Source of the DNA: Bacillus sp. AFS055030
GTDB taxonomy: Bacteria; Bacillota; Bacilli; Bacillales; Bacillaceae_G
Direction: 5' to 3'
DNA length: 64,000 nucleotides
Assembly: GCF_002574545.1 (NCBI RefSeq)
Contig: NZ_NUGT01000017.1
Span: forward strand, 69,571-133,570
Position 1 is the stretch's first letter. Every line of letters starts with the position of its first letter. Positions 16,543 through 62,690 of this stretch are shown here, one piece after another. Below the pieces are notes generated by a model. That model worked only from the letters and a program-made list of their open reading frames with translations. It was not told the origin of the DNA and did no database searches. The position numbers were made by a program, and so were the translations under genes.

Positions 16543-16561
16543 ATGTATTAATTGAATCGCG

Positions 16562-16811
16562 AAAAGCAATGATAGGAATTTTAGTAGTGGAGTTTTCCCT
16601 GTATCAGAGAGCTGGTGGTTGCTGCAAACCAGTACATAGAACACATGAATTACGATCCTAGAGCATCTTCCTCGAAACGAATGGTGAGGGGAAGACGGTG
16701 AAGAGCCGTTATGAAATGAAGATATTAGTATTATTTTTCATACTAATAATTTAGGGTGGTACCGCGAATAGACTATTTCGTCCCTACTGTGCAAACAGTA
16801 GGGACTTTTTT
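16562..16811 (+). promoter_or_regulatory. T-box riboswitch 1 (tyrosine type)
   Basis: Stem I begins near 16562. The specifier-loop context GAAT-TAC-GATCC puts a UAC (Tyr) codon at 16651-16653. The T-box AGGGTGGTACCGCG is at 16753-16766, and a terminator with an 11-bp stem (GTCCCTACTGT/ACAGTAGGGAC, 16780-16805) plus T-run follows. Uncharged tRNA-Tyr should favour the antiterminator. Confidence 0.93.
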
Positions 16812-16837
16812 ATTTTAAAAATAATAATTAAATAAGA

Positions 16838-17091
16838 TAAGCAATGATTGGAGCAAAAGTAGTAAAGTTTTCCCTGTAACAGAGAGCTGATGGTTGGTGC
16901 AAATCAGTACATAAAACTTTATGAATTACAATCCATGAGCATCTTCTTCGAAACGAATAGTGAGGGGAAGACGGTGAAGAGCCGTTATGAAATGAAGATA
17001 TTGGTAAGTTTTAGTAAAATTTATTAATAACTAGGGTGGTACCACGAGTTTAACGTTCGTCCCTACTGTATAAACAGTAGGGATTTTTTTT
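16838..17091 (+). promoter_or_regulatory. T-box riboswitch 2 (tyrosine type)
   Basis: A second complete T-box about 276 bases after the first and strongly similar to it from GCAATGAT through GAAGATATT. Specifier UAC at 16927-16929, T-box AGGGTGGTACCACG at 17033-17046, terminator stem TCCCTACTGT/ACAGTAGGGA at 17060-17083 with eight T. Together with T-box 1 it forms a serial regulator of phhA. Confidence 0.92.
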
Positions 17092-61329: not shown

Positions 61330-61434
61330 TTTTTTTCTCCTTTAGTTTTTTCAGAAAATTTCCTATTCAATTATTTTGGAAAAGCTCCCTAATATAACTT
61401 TAGCAAAATTTAATAAATAAAATGGAGATCATTG

Positions 61435-61658
61435 TGACAATAAATCAAATACTAAACTATTCGTTATTAATGAATAAGCTAGTGGTAATGAAAAAGTGAT
61501 TCTAAAATATTTACTAGACAACGATAACGAAGGAAAAGGCAGACTAAAAAGCCTCAAGAAAAAAGCTTTTACTGGTACCAACAAGTCACTCAAAAAAGGA
61601 AAAAAACTATAAAATCATGATCATAAAAGAATATTTTCCTACTCAAAAAGAAACCTAA
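61435..61658 (+). pseudogene. possible decayed small gene
   Basis: GTG 61435, preceded by TGGAG, opens a 21-codon frame (T-I-N-Q-I-L-N-Y-S-L-L-M-N-K) that ends at 61500. The next frame then continues S-G-N-E-K-V-I-L-K-Y-L-L-D-N-D-N-E-G-K-G to 61658, and a third reads F-Y-W-Y-Q-Q-V-T-Q-K. Protein-like stretches in successive frames suggest frameshifts in a former gene. No family recognised; chance cannot be ruled out. Confidence 0.25.
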
Positions 61659-61709
61659 ATCATTGCGGTCAGAACATTCTAACGATATAATAAAACATAA
61701 GACCTATAT

Positions 61710-61858
61710 GCATTCGTAGCCCAGGGGATAAAGCACGAATGAATAAGCACCCATGCAACAACATCGAGCGCACTTGCCGAGCCACACCTTGCATAAGCTT
61801 ACTGAGATTGGGGCGACAGAAAGAAAATCCTTATTTTAAACCACATATTAAAAAATAT
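61710..61858 (+). repeat. half-tRNA tandem repeat, unit A
   Basis: Begins with the 5' half of the tRNA-Arg (GCATTCGTAGCCCAGGGGAT..., 61710-61735: acceptor 5' strand and D arm, three differences), then about 120 bases of sequence shared with unit B, ending CCACATATTAAAAAAT. No anticodon arm or 3' half follows, so it is not a tRNA gene. Confidence 0.8.
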
Positions 61859-62003
61859 GCGTTCGTAGCTCAGGGGATAGAGCACGACCGAATAAGCATC
61901 GTAGCGAAACATCAGCACACCAATCGAGCTGCTCCTTGAGGTTAACATGCTGAGATTGGGGTGACAAAAAGAAGATCCTTATTTATCCCACATATTAAAA
62001 AAT
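61859..62003 (+). repeat. half-tRNA tandem repeat, unit B
   Basis: The first 26 bases equal the 5' half of the intact tRNA-Arg exactly; the remaining 120 are similar to unit A (shared GAATAAGCA, CTGAGATTGGGG, GAC.GAAAGAA-type and ATCCTTATTT blocks) and end in CCACATATTAAAAAAT directly before the real tRNA. In unit B, CACACCAATC and GATTGGGGTG can pair over 9 of 10 positions. Confidence 0.82.
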
Positions 62004-62076
62004 GCGTTCGTAGCTCAGGGGATAGAGCAACGGTTTCCGGTACCGTGTGTCGCAGGTTCGAATCCTGTCGAGCGCG
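62004..62076 (+). tRNA. tRNA-Arg (anticodon CCG)
   Basis: 73 nucleotides with a full cloverleaf: acceptor GCGTTCG/CGAGCGC, D arm with AGCTCAGGGGATAGAGC, anticodon stem ACGGT/ACCGT with loop TTCCGGT (anticodon CCG, reads CGG), T arm GCAGG-TTCGAAT-CCTGT, discriminator G. CCA is not encoded. It matches the position of the tRNA-Arg near clpP in B. subtilis. Two 5' half copies precede it in tandem. Confidence 0.96.
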
Positions 62077-62086
62077 CTAAAAGAAT

Positions 62087-62135
62087 AAACCGAGTGATTA
62101 GATCTGTAAAATAACAGACCGATCACTCGGTTTTT
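62087..62135 (+). terminator. terminator of the tRNA-Arg gene
   Basis: A 12-bp stem AAACCGAGTGAT (62087-62098) with ATCACTCGGTTT (62122-62133), then TT; an inner AGATCTG/CAGACC adds pairs. Confidence 0.9.
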
Positions 62136-62274
62136 ACTTTCTTAAAATTAGAATCTCAGTCTTAAACCCTACCAATGCTCTACAACTAAAGATGTAATAA
62201 AACTCCATCCAATGAAGAATGGGTTCCTTTAACTTAAAGTCATATATTTAAAGTAAATAAGGGAGGGCATTTAA

Positions 62275-62430
62275 ATGGATATGAATTCTTGGTTTCTTGA
62301 AGAAATGGCACAAATCAATAAGGATGAAATAGGAAGAGAATTAAAATTTATAGAGACTTATAAACTGTACGCAACATCTAAAAAGAAGAAACACTGCATC
62401 GACTTAATAATCATTAAATTCTGTTTCTAA
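62275..62430 (+). CDS. Small hypothetical protein, 51 residues
   Basis: ATG 62275 follows GGGAGGG (62261-62267) at 7 bases. The product starts M-D-M-N-S-W-F-L-E-E-M-A-Q-I-N-K-D-E-I-G, continues with a charged helix, K-K-K-K-H-C, and ends in a hydrophobic L-I-I-I-K-F-C-F. It is unrecognised. A long hairpin follows directly (62466), as would be expected of a monocistronic gene. It may be a real small protein or a remnant. Confidence 0.45.
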   Translation: MDMNSWFLEEMAQINKDEIGRELKFIETYKLYATSKKKKHCIDLIIIKFCF

Positions 62431-62465
62431 AGTCATGTTTAAAATCATTTTAAATTTATTAAAAA

Positions 62466-62512
62466 AAGAGCCGAGTAATTTTATATTTATAAAAATTATT
62501 CGGTTCTTTTCG
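62466..62512. terminator. long hairpin, possible bidirectional terminator
   Basis: A 17-bp stem with two G-T pairs, AAGAGCCGAGTAATTTT (62466-62482) and AAAATTATTCGGTTCTT (62492-62508). The T-run is longer (seven) when read on the minus strand than on the plus strand (four). Confidence 0.75.
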
Positions 62513-62574
62513 TACCTTCTATTTTTTACCTCTATCCTTTTCCCTAACTATATGTTATATTATTCTTTGCGATG

Positions 62575-62690
62575 AGCTTATTTGAGTAAGACGAGAGATA
62601 TGCGCAAGCTAAACGCGCGGATGTGGCCGCCCGGTTTCTCGCCTCAAACGCATCAAGACGTCTGCTGCGGCAGGCGTCTTTCTTTTTGTC
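62575..62690 (+). ncRNA. G+C-rich probable structured small RNA
   Basis: Within A/T-rich surroundings, 62592-62680 is strikingly G+C-rich (GCGCAAGC, ACGCGCGG, GTGGCCGCCCGG). It ends in an intrinsic terminator: AAGACGTCTGC and GCAGGCGTCTT pair over 11 bp, followed by TCTTTTT. A TATATT (62556-62561) upstream could be a -10. No open frame with an SD is present. In AT-rich bacteria such an island usually marks a structured RNA; I cannot match it to a known class. Confidence 0.45.

Follow-up and report, generated by a model that had tools for sequence, protein, structure and literature searches.

Integrative elements at tRNA genes leave, as a rule, 3' copies of the tRNA at their far end, are kilobases in size and carry an integrase. 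tRNA fragments resulting from integration are described in passages of one published account (PMC9897764). The units reported here are like tRNA-targeting integrative elements and phages in that tRNA genes are targeted, partial tRNA copies are found and the target tRNA stays intact. They differ in that the copies are of the 5' part, each unit, at about 150 bp, is too short to encode an integrase, and a core is conserved in both sequence and fold.

T-box leaders bind tRNA and regulate genes for mRNAs. T-box and other leader riboswitches (RF00230) resemble the units as structured RNAs that lie ahead of a transcribed gene and occur in tandem copies, whereas the units are the leader of a tRNA and contain a copy of its 5' part. 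REP and MITE-like repeats are likewise short, dispersed hairpin repeats without a protein gene; the units differ from them in standing in one orientation before tRNAs and in showing no trace of recent spread from one tRNA type to another. Group I introns also occupy a fixed place inside tRNA genes, but the tRNA downstream of the units is uninterrupted.

Within the window, by which we mean the whole 64-kb stretch of DNA analysed, Rfam 15 at gathering score matches only T-box, BsrF, TPP and tRNA families and nothing on the units. When the units were searched at E values up to 10, only matches far below gathering score were obtained, two snoRNA models on the other strand among them, and the T-box covariance model matches at 16560-17067 only, with none at 61400-62600. 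The preliminary description knew of no family with this format, and the units indeed match none in Rfam; an open-access literature search returned no account of such units, which may be described elsewhere. The T-box matches at 16560-17067 are tandem leaders (137.7 and 150.6 bits), the BsrF small RNA lies at 62569-62678 (104.1 bits), shortly behind the tRNA, and the TPP riboswitch at 204-313 (69.7 bits).

The sole tRNA that ARAGORN finds in the window is an intact tRNA-Arg(CCG) at 62004..62077 (Rfam 59.8 bits), on the + strand like all features given below. Ahead of it stand two units, A and B, and the successive tRNA-Arg 5' copies are spaced 149 and 145 bases apart. Unit A begins with a copy of tRNA-Arg bases 1-26 (61710..61735, 23/26 identical) ending in an altered heptamer, TAAAGCA, followed by a core at 61736..61815 (76.9 bits with the covariance model R1 introduced below) whose hairpin arms no longer match, and by the dinucleotide AC, which is also the tRNA's, and a spacer (61816..61858). 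Unit B copies bases 1-26 exactly (61859..61884, 26/26) and ends in TAGAGCA; its core at 61885..61963 (R1 match 88.5 bits), which is part of the 30-copy alignment, contains the covarying hairpin at 61916..61963 (arms 61916-61925 and 61954-61963, A-G mismatch at 61919/61960). The dinucleotide AC, as found after GAGCA in the tRNA, and a spacer complete unit B (61964..62003). The site TAGAGCA^AC of the tRNA itself lies at 62023-62031. The sequence CCACATATTAAAAAAT stands upstream of both the real tRNA and unit B, there with two additional bases, AT, and a terminator-like hairpin detected as an inverted repeat and by a scan lies 3' of the tRNA (62080..62140).

The repetition of 5' tRNA-Arg parts ahead of an intact tRNA, as first described, therefore stands for both units. 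The term 'half-tRNA' used for them is inexact, since the cut is set by the heptamer TRGAGCA, mostly near base 26 and at base 14 in initiator tRNA-Met. The 120-base body of each unit consists of two parts, a conserved core of about 80 nt and an AT-rich spacer.

In sister species, Arg(CCG) units carry two hairpins in tandem (L040, L041, L042 and L043). The 5' arm of unit A resembles hairpin 1 of these two-hairpin units and its 3' arm resembles hairpin 2; because the arms resemble different hairpins, unit A looks, in a by-eye comparison, like the product of an internal deletion that fused the two. Folded as single sequences, neither unit B (z -0.99) nor unit A (z -0.27) does better than shuffled sequence, so the claim of structure rests on comparison.

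A likely promoter of array and tRNA (TTGCGG, 17 nt, TATAAT) lies at 61663..61691, as judged by comparison of congeneric loci. This promoter-like sequence is identical in 8 of the 12 congeneric loci tried and present as a variant in a unit-free congener (G009), where the Arg(CCG) tRNA directly follows it; in 3/12 it was not found or not located, and a simple consensus promoter scan does not have 61663..61691 among its predictions. The unit-free site of this congener may be either a loss or the original state. Because the array sits between the promoter-like sequence and the tRNA, co-transcription is likely. Three promoter-proximal Arg(CCG) cores in congeners (L039, L041, L042) are without GAGCA or any tRNA part. 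Elsewhere in the source genome, R1 matches two further units, before tRNA-Lys and tRNA-Thr, and BLAST finds no other good match to the units.

A family of units ahead of tRNA genes

In a first search of 60 relatives, the 5' part together with the body matched at many other loci, and the remaining matches were plain tRNAs. From 20 fetched loci, 41 copies were extracted, of which 30 were aligned and used to build covariance model R1. Within the order to which the window belongs, R1 (E up to 0.001) has matches in 107 of the 299 genomes searched and in 54 of 116 genera, leaving 192/299 genomes without a match. When 299 genomes were drawn from the whole class, this order included, nine of them matched (E up to 1e-4), every one a member of the order. 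Judged by the named members, we infer the order of the family to be Bacillales; NCBI taxonomy places Gottfriedia in Bacillaceae, order Caryophanales. A strict sequence pattern was found in at least 120 named stretches, and the matches listed include Metabacillus, Rossellomorea, Cytobacillus, Neobacillus, Peribacillus and Sutcliffiella, as well as Anoxybacillus, Mesobacillus, Caldibacillus, Gottfriedia and Bacillus glycinifermentans. Although few loci have been studied as closely as tRNA genes, 54 of 116 sampled genera carry in tRNA leaders a conserved RNA that Rfam does not match.

Because units recur in other genomes, the repeat is not due to chance. The preliminary description would have settled for a simple local tandem duplication if the body occurred only here and neither covaried nor was transcribed nor was linked to integrases. 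Searches of Bacillales genomes and the fetched loci place the body beside other tRNA genes, and the stem noted in unit B corresponds to the family hairpin, whose covariation exceeds shuffles; a simple local duplication is thereby ruled out.

Further loci were taken at 59 places from the R1 matches, hand-picked for spread over genera. The profile gave 347 hits (157 + 190); 52 partial ones, including second hairpins, divergent cores and three cores without tRNA part, were left out, and removal of exact duplicates from the other 295 yielded 256 distinct full-length units. Limits on the distance to the tRNA set the number of units in single tests at 190-235. A same-strand tRNA lies at most 120 nt downstream of 203 of the 256 units. 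Another unit and then a tRNA follow in 41 cases and another unit with no tRNA found in 4, while 2 units stand at a locus end and 6 were classed as orphans. The tRNAs behind the 203 units are Lys (45), Phe (42), Met (41), Thr (41), Arg(UCU) (11), Asn (10), Arg(CCG) (7), Arg(CCU) (5) and Asp (1, behind an orphan Met unit). One unit is present at 190 loci, two at 13, three at 8 and six at 1, and units within tRNA clusters lie between co-directional tRNAs.

A full unit consists of the downstream tRNA from base 1 to TRGAGCA, a core of about 80 nt and a spacer. A 5' fragment copied from the tRNA is thus fused to a structured RNA at a point that seven bases define. The core, with consensus CG NNY GARTAWGC ... 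AGC RY ACC NNNC GAGC ... CTTG ... CTGAG NNN GG G RY G, is mostly followed by the two bases that come after the heptamer in the same tRNA and usually by 40-55 nt more up to the intact tRNA. Conservation is highest in GAGCA and in parts of the core.

In the alignment, 98.9% of 270 cells of the hairpin are paired. Double-change cells number 63, compared to 16.8 (sd 5.4) after shuffling, a value reached in none of 500 shuffles, and slid-helix controls give 0-7. Two of the five covariation measures are not above shuffles, namely pairs changed on both sides (6 vs 4.9) and further pair types (11 vs 13.6). Covariation beyond both shuffles and slid controls, which we take as the mark of a structured RNA, is thus present. 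Among 187 non-redundant cores, the helix accounts for seven of the eight top covariation places; the eighth goes to pair 22-26, where the fraction of standard pairs is only 0.49. A second covarying helix was not detected. Over 1683 cells of the hairpin, G-U occurs 45 times and A-C 4 times. Because G-U is tolerated and A-C rare, pairing occurs in the strand that reads as the tRNA, so this strand would act as RNA, single-stranded DNA being less likely.

Kink-turns consist of tandem G-A pairs, a 3-nt bulge and flanking stems. GA and CUGA flank the helix, and the 187 cores show no second covarying stem. Three candidate features were rejected: a hairpin starting at the two bases after the core is only slightly above shuffled sequence (190 spacers), no clear pairing of the post-core dinucleotide or of the 5' part with core columns emerged, and the triplet after CACG, considered as a codon-like specifier, varies independently of the tRNA.

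Site rule, upkeep and age

At the loci fetched, TRGAGCA with A, G or T as the next base (TRGAGCA^D) occurs in 436 tRNA genes, and 214 of these carry a unit within 100 nt, compared to none of 67 in which TAGAGCA is followed by C (Pro, some Asn, Thr-GGU). Units are also absent at GAGAGCA (Val, 0/74) and AGGAGCA (0/16), and occur at CAGAGCA in 1/3 cases and at tRNA genes without GAGCA in 1/1055. Because only loci chosen for holding units were counted, these numbers are contrasts and not genome-wide rates. The rule looks necessary but not sufficient: the other CAU tRNAs (elongator Met, Ile2) have a unit in 3/85 cases though the motif is present in about 35. Most of the tRNAs concerned have the end of the heptamer at base 26, whereas in initiator tRNA-Met it is at base 14; the site is therefore determined by sequence and not by position within the fold.

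The dinucleotide behind the core agrees, base by base, with the one behind GAGCA in the tRNA at frequencies of 0.95 and 0.95 in 151 non-Met units (control 0.31, 0.32) and of 0.97 and 0.78 in 40 Met units (control 0.03, 0.19). In non-Met units the match falls to 0.47 at the third base. Longer matches of up to 15 bases are found mainly at Phe, Asn and Lys, and none of 231 units compared matches its tRNA beyond base 15. In some lineages the dinucleotide match fails, for example at tRNA-Arg(UCU) with TACGCC.

The 5' part of a unit is on average 0.96 identical to its own tRNA (191 units). In units with a diverged leader (87), the mean match is 0.92-0.93, with the highest agreement beside the core and the lowest at the acceptor end; identity of the acceptor part falls in old units to 0.82 (0.62 in eight Met units), with GAGCA remaining near 1.0. 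Decay of the acceptor part with GAGCA kept argues against pairing with the tRNA 3' end as the kept function. Where tRNA 5' parts differ between two genomes, the unit tracks its own tRNA in both at 355 of 413 position pairs, which overlap, are not all orthologous and include D-loop positions; this suggests that sequence is copied between the two. Across 22 arrays, identity to the tRNA in the part compared averages 1.000 for the nearest unit and 0.908 for the farthest. Leader likeness exceeds the 99% null in 40 of 157 first units, some of which may have lost an upstream unit at contig ends, and extends over up to about 45 nt.

The suggestion of repeated integration by a small element finds no backing in the cores as far as recent moves between tRNAs are concerned: of 22,837 core pairs at different tRNAs none is at least 90% identical (best true pair 0.897), compared to 81 of 4,629 pairs at the same tRNA, close relatives included. 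On a core tree, tRNA labels change 69 times versus 148.4 after shuffling, and 53 times versus 67.4 (sd 2.6) when each combination of genus and tRNA contributes a single row. Genus labels cluster too (108 vs 176.4 changes), and a nearest-neighbour test of vertical descent gives a weak signal (29/114 vs 16.3 expected).

Origin and role of the units

The reading we tentatively favour is that of an old, co-transcribed, structured leader RNA with a sequence-defined entry site, kept for a presumed cis role in tRNA precursors. The upstream part of a tRNA gene would have been duplicated and a core inserted into the duplicate at TRGAGCA^D, leaving the tRNA downstream intact, and further copies would have arisen by tandem duplication. 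Selection would keep the core as RNA, with inheritance mainly at one tRNA type, and the tRNA-derived part would be homogenised with the adjacent tRNA through local gene conversion. The core, with GAGCAC at its start, would be transcribed immediately before the tRNA and would most likely act in cis on the maturation of that tRNA, for example by binding a putative protein. Co-transcription, strand-specific covariation and old residence together favour the view that the RNA is retained because it serves the host, action in cis being the simplest form; if so, the units would represent a new way to control tRNA biogenesis. Against this counts that no unit was seen at 222 of the 436 tRNA genes eligible on the fetched loci or in 192 of the 299 genomes, which makes the unit dispensable. 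The two covariation measures that stay within shuffles, the three congener cores devoid of a tRNA part and the match of the dinucleotide behind the core likewise count against it. One form of cis action, a decoy switch, was rejected. The 3' strand of the tRNA is predicted to pair with the unit at 178/194 loci, and in a subsample of one locus in three or four (47 for each of three parameter sets) shuffled core and spacer capture it equally, so no evolved switch is shown.

That C is excluded behind GAGCA and that the dinucleotides agree speaks for an activity inserting at a specific site, at any rate when the units arose, and the exclusion rule suits an inserting enzyme better than a regulator. 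The main rival to a host leader RNA, possible in our view but doubtful, is a site-specific mobile element that is now nearly immobile: an enzyme acting in trans would insert at TRGAGCA^D, using as its substrate or guide either the core RNA or the corresponding single-stranded DNA, and leader and 5' part would be duplicated on insertion, so that the host tRNA survives. Because the core starts with C, insertion would turn the site into TRGAGCA^C, and it would not be used again. This accounts for the site rule (214/436 vs 0/67), for one heptamer serving at two different tRNA places, for the post-core dinucleotide that equals the tRNA's with a sharp drop at the third base (non-Met), and for leader likeness beyond the null (40/157). 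The patchy spread, the tandem arrays and the unit-free site in the congener also fit, whereas the absence of any recent move between tRNA types, with 0.897 as the best cross-tRNA core pair, does not. Nor was a source copy clear of tRNA sequence present among the 256 units examined, or a 3' tRNA copy beyond base 15 after the core (231 units), and the strict pattern has no match in viral contigs. Phage and plasmid records gave short matches only, covering at most 16% of the query among the matches listed, many of them under tRNA-Arg.

The search for an enzyme by co-occurrence yielded no firm lead, with no association for reverse transcriptase or RtcB and a weak one for Y1 transposase. Reverse transcriptase occurs in 54/107 genomes with units and 99/192 without (p 0.90), and the lack of an RVT_1 match (E 1e-5) in 53 of the 107 unit-bearing genomes argues against insertion that depends on retroelements. 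RtcB occurs in 12/107 and 15/192 genomes, respectively (p 0.40). Y1 transposase is commoner with units (88/107 vs 125/192, p 0.002, uncorrected for kinship) yet was not found (E 1e-8) in 19 of the 107 unit-bearing genomes, which argues against dependence on IS200/IS605. A more specific proposal, which we consider rather unlikely, is an enzyme that would recognise TRGAGCA^D in tRNAs or their genes, anywhere in the fold, with the core RNA as its guide or partner; the unit would be an RNA element without a protein gene that came into tRNA genes at this single heptamer, rebuilds the host tRNA through a copy of its 5' part and shields its own junction with the C behind it. Should the units be elements, they would constitute a new kind of tRNA-targeting element with a novel enzyme.

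Two further explanations draw on the same data. The units (TRGAGCA^C plus core) may be decoy or antidote RNAs that titrate or inhibit a factor cutting or binding TRGAGCA^D tRNAs; units stand almost only before motif tRNAs and not before those with C after the motif, GAGCA and parts of the core are best kept, and the motif is not bound to one place in the tRNA fold. We think this improbable, since no analysis points to such a factor and the agreement of unit and tRNA at D-loop positions is not needed for it. Still less probable is that the units have no function and are tandemly duplicated tRNA genes in decay, whose likeness is maintained by slippage and gene conversion. Leader likeness, the lower tRNA likeness of the farthest array units (0.908 vs 1.000) and the concerted evolution of tRNA-derived parts would follow from decay, but a conserved core with strand-specific covariation across dozens of genera would not, and in 231/231 units the post-core match to the tRNA is over by base 15. 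The family model can serve as an annotation aid for stretches that resemble tRNA debris.

Orphan units, variant cores and interrupted tRNAs

The six orphans were inspected by eye. Three lie ahead of a divergent unit or hairpin module, and one ahead of a tRNA-Arg(UCU) missed by ARAGORN because of a group I intron. Another (L048) has a decayed tRNA-Arg downstream, with a tRNA-Arg 3' half about 60 nt on. The sixth (L190, core at 2644), beside reversed 5' pieces of tRNA-Lys, is the only one without a co-directional tRNA or remnant after it.

A second core type starts with GAGCA-ACGAGC (L099, L100, L131, L138, L174, L107, L049), and at several of these seven loci the module CTRCGAGTTGTACC stands upstream of the same kind of hairpin. 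Because this type is found alone or behind a type I core, units are modular.

At L091 (1860-2242), a tRNA-Arg(UCU) behind three units has its anticodon loop interrupted by a group I intron, matched in a scan of that locus by RF00028 at 30.2 bits (E 8.2e-6), below the gathering score of 50. The tRNA-Arg(UCU) behind three units at L211 (Pallidibacillus pasinlerensis) is probably interrupted by such an intron as well.
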